Position numbers and translations under genes: made by a program. Source: Helicostylum pulchrum (taxonomy: Eukaryota > Mucoromycota > Mucoromycetes > Mucorales > Mucoraceae). From it: a DNA stretch of 64,000 bases. Shown here piece after piece: positions 24,775 to 45,900 of this stretch (the stretch's first letter is position 1; every line of letters begins with the position of its first letter). The notes under the pieces were generated by a model. That model was not told the DNA's origin, searched no databases, and saw only the letters and a program-made list of their open reading frames with translations. The stretch is taken from NCBI GenBank assembly GCA_025677825.1, contig JAIXMO010000044.1, positions 186,001-250,000 on the forward strand, in the 5' to 3' direction.

Positions 24775-25967
24775 GATGAAGTAAAACGGGAAGAAAAAGT
24801 GATCTAGAAATGAAAGAAAAGGGGAAAAAAGGGAATTTGCAGGGTCTTTAAATAGTGAAGTGCGGTGTTGTAATTATCAATAACAACGTTAACCCGTATT
24901 GTTTCCCCATTTGACGGGTTTTTTTTCTATCTTTTGAACACAAGCGAGACGTAATTAACAACTTTTTTTAAAACCCCCCCCCCCCCCAGATAATAAGAAC
25001 ATTCTTTTGAGATGATAGACTTGACAATCTTAACCGTAAAAAAAATGAAACCCTGTATTGTATAAAGTCGCGAAAAGGATTTTTAACAATGTGCAGACAA
25101 CAAAGAGAGAGACGGCTGGGAATGAAACGGCCCTGAACATCTGGTCGTACAGTGACTCCCGTGGATGTTCTTTTGTTAGTTTCTGTAAAATCAGATGAAC
25201 AGCGCCTTAAAAAAATCGTCTTTTTGTCGTCTGTAAATTGTTAAAAAAATTGTAATCTTATTTATAAAAAAACCTGTTAACATCTTAAACGATTTTTTTT
25301 TAACAAGCTAACTATTGAAGAAAGACTGATTTTTTGAGAATTTATTATTTCCTGTTAGCTATCGAAAGTTTAATTTCGCCAATTTTAAGAGCCTTGTTTG
25401 ACGTATTATTGCCAGTTCACACCTAGTAAATTTAAAAAGAGTACTTGAGAGGTATATTTAGCTTCCACAACAACAGTTTGACAGGTAAACAGTTTATTGT
25501 TATATTTAAATAACCACCGTTATTTCCGCACAACTTTAATTCGTCTTGAAGAAAAAAATAGCACAGGTCTTCTATTAAATTATACCTCAAACTCTTGAAG
25601 CAGAGTATCCTTTATAATGGTATAGCAATTTGGCTTCAAAATAAAAAGAAATCTACAAGAAATAGAAGAAAAAGAAGTTATTTCAAAAATAAACAATCGA
25701 AGCGCACAAGAAACTGACTGTGCAGTTTGGAATATATCCTGAGTACGTCCGAATCTGGCTCCAACGTATAGAAAATATACAGTTGAAAAATAAAGAAGCC
25801 TTTCTTATGCATGAACGTAGATCTCCCGTTTATTATTGGATCCGGGTCTAAATTACTTTTTTCGATCGTCCCTTATATTTTATTGGTAACCATCATGAGA
25901 AAAAAAAATAGTTATGCAAACAAAAAACAAAGTAACAACAGAACAATACCAATTAATAAAAAATAAT
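24775..25967. other. Gene-poor stretch
   Basis: About 1.2 kb with no recognisable gene, including a run of 14 C's near 24976-24989. Short broken frames exist around 25620-25740 but without a recognised domain. The region separates the housekeeping genes from the small secreted protein and the Fanzor relic. Confidence 0.5.
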
Positions 25968-26103
25968 ATGCTTCATCTTAAAGGTCTGGACCATATCAAC
26001 AAGTTAATATATACACAGGATACTAATCGCTGAAGAATTCAATTTTTTTTTTCTCTCATCAAATTCAATCTCTCTAAATATAACATAAAATGAAGAACTA
26101 ATA

Positions 26104-26376
26104 GCACTTGTCTGCTTTTTACGGCCAATTCTCTCCGTAACTGCTGCAGAAGAAGCTAACGTCGAAACTGATACCGATAACGGTGGTGGTGGCGGTCGTG
26201 GCGGTTATAGCGGTTGTGGTGGCTGCGGAGGTGGTCGTCACTATGGAGATCGCTGGAATTGGGGTTACAACGCATGCTGGTGTGACCGTAGCGGTACTCA
26301 TTGTACAAACTACCGTTGTCATTATGTTGACGAAGATCCCACCCTAGCTCCACATAAATACTCTTTTGTAAAATAG
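26104..26376 (+). CDS. Small Gly/Cys-rich secreted protein, start unclear
   Basis: A frame from 26104 to the TAG at 26374-26376 reads as a hydrophobic signal-like segment (ALVCFLRPILSVTAA), an acidic linker, a glycine-rich run (GGGGGRGGYSGCGGCGGG) and a C-terminal domain with four Cys (YNACWCDRSGTHCTNYRCHY). It has no in-frame ATG: the nearest, at 26090, is in another frame and stops after three codons. Either a first exon lies upstream (an ATG at 25968 with a weak GTCTGG donor at 25984 and the TAG acceptor at 26102-26104 would keep phase) or the start has been lost by a frameshift. Gly/Cys-rich secreted proteins of this size are common in fungi; no function is claimed. Confidence 0.5.
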   Translation, partial: ALVCFLRPILSVTAAEEANVETDTDNGGGGGRGGYSGCGGCGGGRHYGDRWNWGYNACWCDRSGTHCTNYRCHYVDEDPTLAPHKYSFVK

Positions 26377-26590
26377 CCTCTCTCTGTAAATAGTCTTCAC
26401 TTTTTTATTTCTCCCTTCCGAGAAAAAAATTACATATAACCTTTAATTCAAATTTTTTATGCAATTATAAAAGAGACTATGGAAAATGCTCGGCAAGTTA
26501 TCTATTACACGTCCAGAGGGAAACTATCCATTTATGTAACATGATTAATATGGTTCACGGTCACAGGGGATTTATTTTTACTTACTATAG

Positions 26591-27745
26591 TTACTGTTGT
26601 AAATTTCTTAACTCACATGGGTGAGAACCGTGTTCGATACGGCGAATGTAAGGTTCAAGTTTAGTTCTTCGACAAAATACGGCTGGTAATTCTTTGTCTT
26701 GTAATTTCAACGTAGAAATGAGTTTGATGTTTTAGTGGCGCTTACATCACGCTGCCATACTATTCTGCTGTTTTTGCAAACGAGAACAGCGTGGCGGCGT
26801 GAGTCTACCTTAATGAGAGAAGGACTTTGACAAGAATGGAAAATCTATAAAACATATGTATATATTTAACAAACAAACAAATATCTTTGAAACTAAGTAT
26901 GTAGATAATTACGCGTGATGTCCGGAATTCATCTACTCTTGCAACGATCAAGTCTCCAGATTTTTGTCGATTTTGTAATTCTTTCCACAAAATACCCGTT
27001 ATTCTGCATCTATTTCTTTTGATCTTTACACAATCTTTCCCAAACATACCGTTTCCGAAAAAAACGACTAGTAATCTGCTACTTTTGATTTTCAGAGCTA
27101 GTACGTACACAATACTAGTAAGCCGAATACGTAAATATCGTTTCTCGAAATTCTTTTCTTTGCTTCTGTTCTTTTGTTTTTTTTCTTTTACTTTATTTTT
27201 TCCCCCCGTTGATTAAAACATTGCACATTTCTGCGCGAGCTTTTTGTTTTCCTCTATAAAGTAACAGATTGTCTTTTGGCTTATTAAAACCATTGTAGCG
27301 TAATATGCTTTCTAAGTTTTGTAAGATATAAGCTACATAATCGAAATATACATAAATACGACTTGTTTTGCTAGTAGGAATACGTAAAAATATTTCTGTC
27401 ATATTTTTTCTCTCTCTTTCTTTCAACTCTTTCCTCGAATAAACAACCGACCTTGTTAAATTGTAATATTCCTCGGTTGAAATTCTTCTCAGGTCATCGG
27501 AACCAGCTTGAAATACTTGACCCCTACCTGGATCTAACCCAAATACGTTGAATAGGTCATCTACAAGGTCAATGGTACCTTTCAGATCGTCGAGCTTAAA
27601 CCCATAATCTTCATAAAAAATAATTCGCCTTTGGTTATTTTTTATGTATCTCAGTGAGCTTTTTTCTTTAGAAGTAATTATCCACTGTTCGATATAAAGG
27701 TGGATTTCTTCCACATTTCGGCCACCCTTAAACAGAGACGCTACT
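26591..27745 (-). pseudogene. Fanzor-like (eukaryotic TnpB homologue) RNA-guided nuclease relic
   Basis: Minus-strand remains of a TnpB/Fanzor nuclease. RuvC-I is FGLDPGRGQVFQAG (Asp codon 27534-27532), followed by RRISTEEYYNLT, a typical Fanzor motif. The frame then stops after VLINGGKK (27195-27193). A second frame carries VVFFGNGMFGKDCVKIKR and VDEFRTSR (Glu codon 26930-26928). A 68-base intron (26912-26845) with good sites leads to IFHSC, then VLVCKNSRIVWQRDVSATK, where WQRD gives the RuvC-III Asp (26748-26746). One missing base near 26730 shifts the frame, and the C-terminus continues as KELPAVFCRRTK ... IEHGSHPCELR to a TAA at 26593-26591. The N-terminal half is absent. Two of four zinc-ribbon cysteines appear lost (F for C before HSC; S after CKN). 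It is therefore dead as a protein. Confidence 0.75.
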
Positions 27746-27910
27746 GTATTCCTTTATTTAGTTTCCTTTTCGTTTTAACGGAAGCTTTGGGTCTGGTAAG
27801 TCATCATTTTTTATGGGGTTAAAAAAAAACTTTATTTATTATGTAAAGTTCAGGGTAATAAGAGTAATAAAGAAACCGACAAAAAATAAAGGTTTTTAAT
27901 AATAGAAAAT

Positions 27911-30804
27911 TTACAATTTGCTTTCACGAGCAGAAGCATTGAGTTCAACAGCAGCGTTAGAGATGGCAATAACATCACGTTCAACAACACGGGTTTGGAA
28001 AATAACCTTGTTACCTTCCTTCCACATGGATGTTTCGAGTGTCTCACCGGGGAAGACGTGTTTAGCAAAACGAGCCTTAATGTTCTTGAAGGCTTCAGGA
28101 TCATCGTTACAGAAAGTCTTGAGTACATGCTTACCAGAGATACCGAAAGAACAAAGACCATGGAGAATGGGTACTTCGAATCCACCAATAGCGGACATAT
28201 CAGGATCAATATGCAAGGGGTTGAAATCACCACTTAAACGGTAAAGAGCGGCTTGATCTTCGTTAGTCTTTTCAGTAACAACGGCATCGGGTTTACGGTT
28301 GGGAATGGCATTAGCAGCGGTAGAAGCTCCACGGTCTTCACCCTTGGACTTACCACCGAATCCACCACTACCACGAATGAAGAAAGTGAATTCGTTTTCA
28401 AAGACAACCTCGTTTGTATCGTCTGTTGTGATAACAGCAAGAGTAACTGAAGCACCCTTACCCTTATCGAGGATATCAACAATATGAGAGCGAGACGTGA
28501 GTGTACCAGAGGTAGGGATAGCCTTCTTTACTGACAAGAATTGTTCACCATGTAACAACATCATAGGGTTGAAGTTGGGGACAATGTCACCGAAAGGAAC
28601 AACGCTTGTGGCAGCGAAAGAAGGAATGACACCAAAGGTAGGTAAAACACTAAAGTTGACATCATTTTCGTAAACATATTTGGTATCAGTACGCTTGCAA
28701 CCAACACCTAAAGCATATAAGATAGCTTCACGTTCTTCATAATGGAATTCTTGGGATTCAAGTTCTAACTTTTTAGCAGCTTCAACACTGAGCAAACCAT
28801 CCTCAGACTTGGGCTCCTCTTCTTGGATGTTACTAAAGTTATCCATGAAACCTTGGAAAGAATCTTGAGTGCTGTTGGGGTTAGTAGCGCGACCATCTTC
28901 AAAGTCAATGATACGAGACCAGGCAGCAGCAACTTGTTCAGGGGATAAATCACGGTTGGCGGGGAATCCAACACCACCGGAACGTTGCCAGCGGACTTGA
29001 GCAACCCAACCACTACCAACTTCAAAGATACCACCGGTCTCTTCATTGCTGCTGTGACCGAGGAATGCAACAAGAGGAGCAACGTATTCAGGCTTGAAGG
29101 CCTCGACCATCTCTGGGGGCATAACAGTGGCAGTCATACGAGTACCAGCATTAGGAGCAATAACGTTAGCAAGAATGTTTTTACGTTGACCTTCAAGAGC
29201 TAAAGTACGAGTGAAACCAACAACACCAAGCTTGGCAGAACTGTAATTGGTTTGACCAAAGTTACCGTACAAACCAACAGCAGAAGCAGTGTTAATAATA
29301 CGACCATACTTTTGCTTAACAAAGTGAGGCCAGGCAGCTTGAACGACCTTATAAGTACCTCTCAAGTGAACACGGTGAACGAGATCCCAATCAGCATCAG
29401 TCATACGGGCGAAAGATTTGTCACGAAGGATACCAGCATTGTTAACAACGATATCAATACGACCAAAGGCCTTGAGGGCAGTCTCAACAACCTTATCGCC
29501 TTCTTCAACGGAATCGTAATTGGCAACAGCCTTACCACCGGCCTTACGGATCTCTTCAACAACAAGATCAGCAGCACGGCTATCAGAACCTTGACCAACA
29601 GCGGAACCTCCGAGATCGTTTACAACAACAGAAGCACCCAATTTGGCAAAGAGTAAAGCATAAGCTTTACCGAGTCCACCACCAGCACCAGTGACTACAG
29701 CAACTTGACCATCGAATCTCAACGCATCAGCCTTAGGGTTAGCATTAGCAGCCTTTGCACGTTCCAAAAGGGCTAAGAAATCAGTATCCATAATAGAGGT
29801 AGGGTACTCATTCTCCTTTTCAAAGTCAGTAATTTCTTCCCACTTGGCTCCAACAGCAGCAGGATCGAAAGAATCATCGGCCTTGAAAACGGCACCAGCA
29901 GAACGTTCCCATCTCAACTTGGAAACAAATCCACCTCCAACTTCAAAGATACCACCGTTATCTTCAGTCTTTTCGTGACAAAGATAACCAACAACAGGTG
30001 TAACAAATTCAGGTTTAAGAGAAGCAAGAACCTCAGCAGGCATGACGGTTTCGGTCCTATATAAAACGTAAGTATATTGGAATATGTATATTATTATTTT
30101 TTAAAAAAAAAGATATCCTTACATTCTAGAAGCAGCCATGGGGGCAATGGTGTTACAGTGAATGTTATCCTTAGCACCTTCCTTGGACAAGGAGTTACTG
30201 AAACTAGCAAGAGCAAGCTTGGCTAAGTGCATTAAAAAAATAAGGGCAATTAATAAGCAAATAATAATAAATAAAAAGGTTCCCACCACTATAATTGTTA
30301 CTTACCAGCACTATAATTAGCTTGACCAAAGTTACCATATAAACCAGCAGCAGAAGCAGTCATGATGATACGACCATACTTTTGCTTCTTCATGATGGGC
30401 CAAGCAGCCTTAGTGACAGCATAAGAACCCTTAACATGAACAGCTTGGATGAGATCCCAATCGGCATCGGTGATTCTGGCAAATGACTTGTCACGAAGAA
30501 TACCGGCATTGTTAATAATAATATCAACGCGTCCAAAGGCCTTCATGGCAGTCTCGACAATCTTCTCACCATCTTCAACAGAGTTGTAATTGGCAACGGC
30601 TTTACCGCCAGACTTTAAAATTTCTTCAACAACAACGTCAGCGGCTTTACCGCTGGATCCGTCTCCAGTGTGAGATACACCAAGATCGTTAACTACAATA
30701 CTGGCACCGCGGCTAGAAAAGTAAAGTGCATATGCCTTACCAAGTCCTCCACCAGCACCGGTAACAATAGCTACTCTTCCATCATATCGAATATCGTTAC
30801 TCAT
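27911..30804 (-). CDS. FOX2: Peroxisomal multifunctional enzyme (two SDR domains plus enoyl-CoA hydratase 2)
   Basis: Exons (minus strand) 30804-30306, 30222-30123 and 30056-27911 give 914 residues, the usual fungal length. It catalyses hydration and D-3-hydroxyacyl-CoA dehydrogenation in peroxisomal beta-oxidation. Domain A (residues about 1-290) has [21 protein letters not shown] and, after splicing, YSAAK. Domain B (about 310-600) repeats the same motifs with YSSAK. The C-terminal hotdog domain has the hydratase-2 motif [14 protein letters not shown]. The last three residues are SKL, a peroxisomal targeting signal type 1. Codons favour C in the third position, unlike neighbours, suggesting high expression. 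Confidence 0.96.
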
Positions 30805-42942: not shown

Positions 42943-45900
42943 TTATAATTTTCTTTTTTTATGAACATTTACTACTGCTTTTCTATTTGGAGTTAGGTTT
43001 TTTTGTGCCGAGCTTTCTTTATTTCTTCGCATAGCCTTAGCTTCTTTTTTCTTTTCTTTATCATTCTTCTTTGTTAATTTGGCGAGCTTCTTACGTTCTC
43101 TTTCTCTTCTTAAAAGCTCTTCAAATGAATATGCGCCGTCCCCTGTATTTTTTTCTTCAGTAACTACTTTAGTCCCCTTATTTTCAAGAGATGAATGGGA
43201 AATTGTTGGTACTTCTAATTCATCATTACTTTTTTGAACGCTACCTTGGCTGTTTTCTGTTGGTGTTTCTTGAGAGACATCATCTTCGATTGGTGTTTTC
43301 CTTTTTGAAGTTTTTTTATTGCTTTTAGTCTCTTTAGGTGTAGTCTCCTCTACATCGGGTATCTCAGCTTCGATTTCTTTAGTACCTTCTTCTCCAGTAG
43401 GTATATTTCGATATGCTTTTTTCAATTTTGCGTTTTTAGTAGGTTTCTCAACCACATAAATCTCTTGAATTGTTGGTTCATTCGAGCTACTAGTCTCTTC
43501 AACAGGAATTTCTTCAGTATACTTACGCACAGAGGTTCGTCTTGGTTTACGACCCTTAATTCTTTTATTTGATATATTTTCTGCATCGGTCGGCTCTGAT
43601 AGTGCCATCTCCGTATCTTTAAGTTTATTTGCAATGTTAGTTAATTCACTGGAAGATTCCTCTTTGATTTCTTCGTCAAAGACATATGGATCGACTTGGT
43701 TTAGGAGTGTGTCAGTATTAGTGAGCTCTGATGATACGGTCTCGATATGTTGTTCTTGAGAAACAGTCTTTTCGATTTGCTTTACAGGTTCTTCACGTTT
43801 ATTTTTGGAACGTTTTGTTTTTTTACTAGGAGCTTGTTCAATCTCTACAGGTTCAACATTGGTAGTTTCAAGATTTGTAGAAGTTATAATTTTTTCCGAG
43901 TTTTGTACTGCTTGTTCATCTACTAAATTATTAGATTGTTTCTTTTCTGTCGAGGCAGTTGGTCTTCTGCGTTTAGGCGTTTTAATAGGCGTAGTCTCAG
44001 TACTTGGCGCAATAGAACCGACTTCTTCAATATGCTCTACTGGAGTTTCTTTAACTGGTCTTTTTTTGGCCGGTTTCTTGGCTCTTGAGTTCGTTTTCGA
44101 AGTAAGCTCCTTGACATCAGTTTCTTCGTTAGTTTCGGTAGGAATGCTTTCAACGGGTATATTATCAAGTACTTTTTTCCCTACAGGGCTCTTTGATCTC
44201 GTGCGACTTGCTACTGGGGTTCTTGGTCTTGAGGCATTGGATACTGGGCTACTAGATCTTGTCTTCTTTGTCACGGGAGTCCTCGGTTTTCGGGACTTCC
44301 TTTGAACTGGTGCCTTTTCTTCGATTAAGCTCTCTGCTGTTGGTCCCTGCTCTGCTGGGTTCTTATCTACTGTGCTATGCTCCACTGGGCTCTGTTCTAC
44401 TTGGATTTGTTCTACTTGGATCTGTTCTACCGAAGAATTTGTTGGTCGCTTTTTGACTTTCGAATTTCTTGCTTTTTTACTCGGGAAAACTTCAGTCTCG
44501 ACAGTCCAATTAGTATCTGCATTATGAGGTACATCATTTGATTTGGCTTGATCGCTATTAGATTCTGGTATTGTATCGACTGTTTCCGTGGATTGATTTT
44601 CTAGCTTCATTCGCTCTTCGTACAGCTTTTTGGTCTCGCTTCTAGATGTCCTTTTAGGTCTAGGACCGTGTACTACTTGTGCTATAACATCTCTACTGCC
44701 TATACTCTTCTTTGGGATTGGATTTTCTTGCAGTACAGCTTTTGGTACCACATATTCTTTCTTGATATGGACTCGTTTTTTGGGAACTCGCTTTTCAGCT
44801 TTTAATTTTTCAGCTTTTAACTTTTCGGTTATTAATTTGTGTGCATTTAATTTTTCGGCTTTTAACTTTTCAGCTTCTACACTTTCAGCTTCGACTGCTG
44901 GGGTTTCAGTTACTCTCTGTTCGACTTCCAGCTTTTCAACTTCCAGCCTTTCAGCGACTCGCTTTTGTTTTTTTGTTTTTTCTTTCCTCGATAACTTATA
45001 TATGTCTGTACTATTTGATATTTGTGGATTTTGATCTACTGTGACTGGATCAGATAGACTAGAGTTGTTGTTTAGATCTGGCTCTTTTGATCCAAAAGTT
45101 GTTTCCAAGTAGTTACATATATAGCCAACATCAAATTCATCGTCATCAAGTGGAATATCGGCCAACATATCTGGACAGCTAATAAAAGAAAGTATGTTAA
45201 TTTAACGTATATAGAAACAGTGTTAAAAAAATCTTACTCTAATACGCCGGGAGCGTCAAGAGATAAATCACTATCTGAATCTACACTTGAAGCTACAGTT
45301 GAATTTATAACGGATCTCCCAGCTGATCCTCGAGCTGATCTTCGGGCTGAATCAGCTATACCTCTGCTATCGACTTCTTTTTCGGCTTCTTTCTCGACCT
45401 CTTTCTCGATTTCTTCCTCTTCGTCAGATTCACTTTCACTATCACCCTGTGAGACAAAATTTCCCATAAGATGAACACCACTGTATGTACGGTATAAGAT
45501 AGAGAATATATTTTATTATTATTATTATTACTATTATTTCTACTTACTTCGGACCAGCGGATCGGAAGAGGATTTTTTCACCTTTTAAACAAGTAATGTC
45601 AATAACATGTTGCTCAAACTTTTCTGGAATCAATGAGCATAATAAAAAGCGTGTATCTTGAAACTCCATATACACGGATGTCCTTTCCGGACCTTGGAAA
45701 CTACTGATAGAAGCCTAAAATGGGGTAACTATGCATCAGTTATTTTGAAAGCTTGCCCATTTAAAGTGAAAAAAAAATATACCATGGTTATTTTGAACGA
45801 TCCATCAACGGAAACCGCGCGGGTCTTCCCAGGTTCTATTTCTAAACCTAGAAAAAAAACGTGTTATAGCTTAACATTACGGGTTTGGCACACATGCATA

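Follow-up and report, generated by a model that had tools for sequence, protein, structure and literature searches.

Fanzors are eukaryotic nucleases that cut DNA under the guidance of RNA, and are borne by transposons. Fanzor1 genes are already known in Mucorales (available text of PMC3627910 and PMC11423790). Mucor circinelloides, Rhizopus and Phycomyces carry several Fanzor1 families per genome, as well as deletion copies, and the described mucoralean elements are either MuDR-like, with 9-bp duplications, or devoid of TIRs, according to the available text of Bao and Jurka (2013, PMC3627910). The same source describes, in Dictyostelium, 5' regions common to elements with different Fanzors, and, in Mucor, one Fanzor family with differing 5' regions. 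The omega-RNA of Spizellomyces punctatus is made by a 75-nt scaffold, located between the stop codon and the 3' repeat, plus 14–15 nt of flank (available text of PMC10432273). The typical Fanzor signature consists of a DPG motif and of a RuvC-II Glu placed six residues before a zinc finger (available text of PMC10711439). No paper naming both Fanzor and Helicostylum was found in the literature searched, and a search for Fanzor, pseudogene and intron found none on the subject, judging by titles.

The stretch analysed (the window, 64,000 nucleotides) corresponds to positions 186001–250000 of contig C108 in the genome of the mucoralean fungus Helicostylum pulchrum (32.2 Mb, 168 contigs). On its minus strand, the interval 27648..26506 appears to be the 3' half of a degenerate copy of a Fanzor1-bearing transposon. 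A dead, 5'-truncated, Fanzor1-bearing DNA transposon copy in a mucoralean host is the best explanation of the locus, and very probably the right one. The remnant is flanked on one side by a 729-aa open frame (27911–30100, minus strand) resembling by eye a peroxisomal multifunctional enzyme, on the other by a small Gly/Cys-rich open frame (26089–26376, plus strand). Farther away, a 741-aa Lys/Glu-rich, low-complexity open frame (42943–45168, minus strand) underlies a strong AT skew at 43–45 kb, and contains a 15-bp tandem repeat (44792–44891). The features of the remnant are given below. Scores in bits refer to profile A1, made by 16 mucoralean Fanzor proteins and scored against window frames 1 to 4.

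27646..27749, minus strand: terminal part of an unrelated, dispersed TIR transposon (TACAGTAGCG..), not Fanzor; 11 other loci continue differently
27196..27645, minus strand: frame 1, RuvC-I region of a probable Fanzor1; 53.9 bits to A1, hhalign E 3.8e-13
27534..27532, minus strand: RuvC-I catalytic Asp codon, DPG motif, in frame 1
26913..27212, minus strand: frame 2, shifted relative to frame 1; 8.0 bits, sibling alignment
26930..26928, minus strand: displaced RuvC-II Glu codon, in frame 2; motif also found in other Fanzor families of the genome
26845..26912, minus strand: spliceosomal intron, GT..AG, 68 nt, phase 0; same position in siblings L049, L050 and L051
26733..26844, minus strand: frame 3, zinc ribbon and RuvC-III; 12.3 bits, siblings
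26748..26746, minus strand: RuvC-III Asp codon, in frame 3
26591..26731, minus strand: frame 4, C-terminus ..EHGSHPCELRNLQQ and stop; DNA alignment with siblings, no profile match
26506..26590, minus strand: right arm, ending ..CTGGACGTGTA; kept in siblings, sharp end

An earlier note, based on the letters alone, had recognized Fanzor peptides in these frames. All are in place, in the order and spacing claimed on the minus strand: FGLDPGRGQVFQAG and STEEYYNLT in the frame 27645..27196, VVFFGNG and VDEFRTSR in the frame 27212..26913, CKNSRIVWQRDV in the frame that begins at 26844, EHGSHPCELR in the frame 26731..26591. Membership in the Fanzors holds as well. The scores of frames 1 to 3 exceed the maximum of 5.8 bits reached by 800 shuffled frames (200 per frame), and frame 1 alone matches A1 at 97.9% in hhalign. 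A second profile, A2, made by the window sequence and eleven relatives from the same genome, matches A1 in profile-profile comparison (hhalign) with E 2.5e-22 (99.5%). Solved chains matched by A1 up to E 1 are 19, and include SpuFz1 (E 8.5e-11), a TnpB (7e-5), GtFz1 (1.4e-4), ten LaTranC/Cas12g/TnpB-type chains (0.0021–0.11) and, at the bottom (E 0.5–1), six unrelated proteins. A2 matched SpuFz1 (E 5.4e-7) and PpFz1 (0.0089), the remaining 7 of the 9 listed matches being ribosomal protein L15e (E 0.26–0.27). Among the solved chains compared, both profiles have Fanzor1 chains as their top matches. The profile check proposed by the earlier note succeeded for frames 1 to 3 with the mucoralean profile, and gave nothing for frame 4 or for window frames searched singly in Pfam. 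Zero matches were also found in PDB with frame 1 alone; the Fanzor kinship of the window frames becomes visible only through profiles and relatives.

The window copy has kept its three catalytic codons, for Asp, displaced Glu and Asp. The motif FGLDPG is found at RuvC-I in the window copy, L049 and L052, and the RuvC-III Asp follows the ribbon (WQRD) in frame 3. FFGNG stands where the RuvC-II Glu would normally be, while the Glu of VDEFRTSR is located 42 residues past the G of FFG by hand count, in keeping with the displacement of about 43–45 residues proposed earlier. Once spliced, the window copy reads E-FRTSRI-[F]HSC, and with its DPG motif and a Glu at six residues upstream of the zinc finger it fits the Fanzor signature (as given in the available text of PMC10711439).

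Frame 2 ends exactly at the 5' splice site. The intron, with GT at 26912 and AG at 26845, was found in 4 of the 4 aligned copies spanning the site (window, L049, L050, L051); in L051 the 5' splice site reads CT, and is lost. Presence in all four copies indicates that the intron is older than their spread, and it appears to be ancestral to the Fanzor family of the window, predating the window copy. A spliceosomal intron had been correctly predicted; its gain by the dead copy is contradicted by the siblings, which have the same intron. Other Fanzor families of the genome feature no intron at this motif, and the sequence from the Glu to the zinc finger is continuous (VDEFKTSRICSRC in L061, IDEYLTSQIC in L062 and L064, NEYLTSQICPRC in L060). 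The displaced-Glu motif has the form VDEFKTSRIC in another Fanzor family of the genome, and a Gly stands in the place of the displaced Glu in L059.

The part homologous to siblings begins at 27648 and extends to 26506, or slightly further (26506–26500). The left border had been set at 27745 and must be moved, as the segment 27749..27646 belongs to another dispersed repeat, the end of which adjoins the Fanzor remnant at 27648. The terminus of this repeat recurs inverted 1.13–1.23 kb away in 4 of the 11 loci (22 of 24 bases match in L026 and L023, 20 in L021, 19 in L019), the best match in the remaining 7 being 14–16 of 24. Differing continuations at the 11 loci, together with the inverted termini, point to a separate TIR transposon abutting the remnant. 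About 100 bases of the range originally reported (27745..27649) are part of its end, and are not Fanzor. The segment 27749..27649 was considered as Fanzor N-terminal coding DNA, and rejected because it is a dispersed repeat with other continuations at 11 loci. Ends of this TIR transposon (TACAGTAGCG..CGCTACTGTA; L018–L028 and L043) mark many genomic copies, which measure ~1.1–1.2 kb in 4 of the 11 loci.

The window copy has no left end, and the type of element to which it belonged rests on its relatives. Left termini read CTACACACCCGATCAG, or differ by one base, in L048, L051, L052 and L057; right termini read ..CTGGACGTGTA or near in the family of the window, ..CCAGGTGTGTA or similar in other families. 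Taken together, they denote a short inverted terminus, TACACACC... Elements have the form TA-CACACC..GTG-TA, and flanks share TA only in the three both-ended copies (L048, L051, L057), compared by eye. This would fit a 2-bp TA target duplication, as in Tc1/mariner elements.

A non-coding left arm of ~0.5 kb adjoins the left end (L051:2900–3345, L064, L065, L048, L042, L069–L072). The arm precedes members of three Fanzor families: A, which is the family of the window, B (L042, L064, L065, L067) and C (L048, and L044 and L046, located at C132 and C100). Relative to the L051 reference, left arms in B and C are 71.5–82.7% identical at the DNA level; matched protein pieces between the families sharing the arm are 29–47% identical. 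Apart from the arms and termini, family A shows no DNA match of at least 40 bp (E 1e-5) with either B or C. One 47-bp stretch (L044/L067) is common to the latter two, and zinc-ribbon stretches of 69–83 bp are common to A and a further family, D. The left arm matches the genome in 40 rows, some being pieces of one place. In 13 rows the arm is followed, on its own strand and at no more than 6 kb, by a listed Fanzor match (about 0.2 expected); in the other 27 there is no Fanzor among the matches listed over the same 6 kb. Ten arm-to-right-end intervals span 1.2–5.0 kb, and four of them (C115, C166, C114, C113:199290) contain no Fanzor among the matches listed, in the manner of the S. punctatus ghost elements (available text of PMC10432273). 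The family C elements at C100 and C132 measure 4.7–5.0 kb. The genome includes at least 159 DDE_3 matches; none of those listed is inside the ten arm-to-arm intervals, and among them neither a transposase tied to the element nor an autonomous carrier was identified.

In the light of the Dictyostelium and Mucor cases of Bao and Jurka (available text of PMC3627910), the shared left arm is most simply explained by gene capture or swapping. The arm might alternatively be a selected functional module, such as a promoter, or a guide-type RNA encoded on the 5' side and serving several Fanzors, rather than the backbone of a swap; we regard this as unlikely. A structured RNA in the left arm was discarded, as the consensus fold had z scores of -1.25 (sense) and 0.19 (antisense) against 60 column shuffles. 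The fold was computed from 11 of the 13 rows of the alignment A4, leaving out the partial L054 and L042 and removing gap-rich columns.

Gene or right-arm parts of the window copy are matched at 82–94% DNA identity in at least nine other places (C127, C95, C1, C136 twice, C125, C93, C158, C108:117634), and at 74–85% in C79:494200. Sibling counts are lower bounds, from 40 scored among 226 candidates, most other rows being the unrelated dispersed repeat. One sibling of 1.15 kb is 90% identical to the window copy, and further copies are partial. The nine siblings analyzed with wide flanks (L049–L057) are all truncated, internally deleted or frame-broken, and no intact member of the family is among the copies found. 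L050 (2300–2930, 5215–5700) seems by eye nested in a different Fanzor relic: its left flank holds AIVGIDPAGEVF, its right flank, which translates VDEFRTSIKCSECHDTL.., begins at the displaced-Glu motif of the host relic (VDEFRTSIKCSEC).

Comparison with siblings bears out the decay described in the earlier note. The reading frame is broken near 27200 and near 26735. Phe and Ser replace zinc cysteines 1 and 4, so that the window copy does not have the four-cysteine ribbon; both cysteines are retained in L049 and L051, and cysteine 1 is missing also in L050. The Fanzor family of the window has the ribbon, and we read the missing cysteines as decay. The protein is not full-length either, as the WED/REC half is missing and homology stops at 27648; N-terminal halves are present in L050, L051 and L052. 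Having lost all upstream of RuvC-I, with two frame breaks and two missing zinc ligands, the window copy cannot make a nuclease.

Codon positions were compared by counting every variable alignment column once, because pairwise counts would repeat the same window changes. Changes among copies at positions 1/2/3 are 63/52/63 when pooled, with no significant bias (P 0.12 for a deficit at the second position, 0.29 for an excess at the third). Frame 1 alone features 16/17/9 changes, with no third-position excess, and frames 2 to 4 feature 47/35/54 (P 0.03 for the low second position, 0.07 for the high third). These figures suggest a recent history with little coding constraint, and give a weak hint that the C-terminal part was under constraint earlier. 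The weak bias in frames 2 to 4 may reflect constraint in the past, so that absence of constraint throughout, or neutrality over the whole family history, would be too strong a statement.

The 85-nt right arm, intact in the window, lies between the stop codon and the right end, in the place of a Fanzor omega-RNA. Single-sequence folds of the arm in the window and two siblings are not above shuffles (z 0.31, -0.03, 0.42). A 7-row consensus features 17 pairs, of which one shows a compensatory change, and its fold gains no support from column shuffles (z -0.73). The shared omega-RNA that the earlier note proposed to seek at 26370–26600 found no backing in folds, and homology to other copies ends at 26506–26500, short of the rest of that interval. 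Rfam gave three chance-level matches in 25900..28000 (E 0.55, 0.93, 4.1), and none at gathering score in four related loci. By position, the right arm probably served as omega-RNA scaffold when the element was alive.

Could the locus still be used, as a shortened domesticated Fanzor-derived protein, or as a guide-RNA right arm for Fanzors made elsewhere? Retention of the three catalytic codons and of the splice sites, a frame 1 open across 150 codons of Fanzor sequence, an intact right arm, and the long Fanzor frames that stay open in another family of the genome would all agree with such a use. Against it stand the two frame breaks, the loss of two zinc ligands and of the N-terminal half, the lack of third-position excess in frame 1, right-arm folds no better than shuffles in the family, and the failure to see, among the copies found, an intact same-family member that could serve it. 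Continued use is therefore held to be very improbable. Chance likeness, by which short Fanzor-like motifs would have arisen in AT-rich non-coding DNA, agrees with the lack of Pfam matches for single frames, and can practically be dismissed in view of the shuffle control (best 5.8 bits), the 90% identical 1.15-kb copy at another genomic place, and the profile-profile E of 2.5e-22.

The locus is best viewed as a dead transposon copy. The live element would have carried, 5' to 3', a short TIR (TACACACC..), the ~0.5-kb non-coding left arm, the Fanzor1 gene and the ~85-nt right arm. The gene would have encoded a predicted RuvC nuclease guided by RNA, bearing the DPG motif and the displaced Glu, the intron lying between Glu and zinc ribbon. 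The right arm was probably the omega-RNA scaffold, the guide being taken from flanking host DNA, and a transposase acting in trans presumably mobilised the element. TnpB has been proposed to cut vacated or empty sites, favouring re-copying of the element, and the Fanzor nuclease would have acted likewise, aiding retention. The window copy has lost all upstream of RuvC-I at the junction with another transposon.

PF07282 matches at least 18 places in this genome, 17 above cut-off. L060 (C158; 2599–5116) features overlapping open frames of 383 and 476 aa, together covering a whole Fanzor in which DPG, the displaced Glu and an entire zinc ribbon are present. The 476-aa frame is matched over 89% of its length, at 90% identity, by a Mucor flavus protein, the record of which has VGPG and stops inside the zinc ribbon. 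The public models P0018 and P0015 cover just the N-terminal part of the L060 Fanzor. Long open Fanzor frames thus exist in the genome, in a family other than that of the window. The suggestion that functional copies may be found elsewhere may hold for this family, and is not borne out for that of the window, no copy of which was found intact.

The relic is a further fossil of the spreading of RNA-guided nucleases in fungi, and a single copy otherwise ordinary. With several Fanzor families, varied decay and shared arms, Helicostylum and its relatives may be used for testing Fanzor gene exchange between transposons.

The mucoralean family can be aligned with S. punctatus SpuFz1 (PDB 8gkh) over the RuvC-I region, the displaced RuvC-II Glu and the zinc ribbon; alignment is weaker with Guillardia theta GtFz1 (9cer; 1.4e-4 with A1) and Parasitella parasitica PpFz1 (9cf0; 0.0089 with A2). 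The window copy differs from these three proteins in being truncated and broken, and its family in having an intron directly before the zinc ribbon. The 85 nt from stop to right end are close to the 75-nt scaffold of the SpuFz1 omega-RNA, and arms with no gene among the matches listed (27 of 40 left-arm rows) are reminiscent of the Spu-1 ghost elements of S. punctatus; Spu-1 features 30-nt repeats, instead of a ~0.5-kb left arm common to three Fanzor families (available text of PMC10432273). Helicostylum resembles the Mucorales elements described in the available text of PMC3627910, as it belongs to the same order and has several probable Fanzor1 families per genome, deletion copies, and 5' regions common to elements with different Fanzors, the case described there for Dictyostelium. 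It differs from them, by that description, in having ends TACACACC..GTGTA and flanks sharing TA only (three copies, by eye). The window element is of an already known kind, to which corrected borders and the observation of a shared arm are added.
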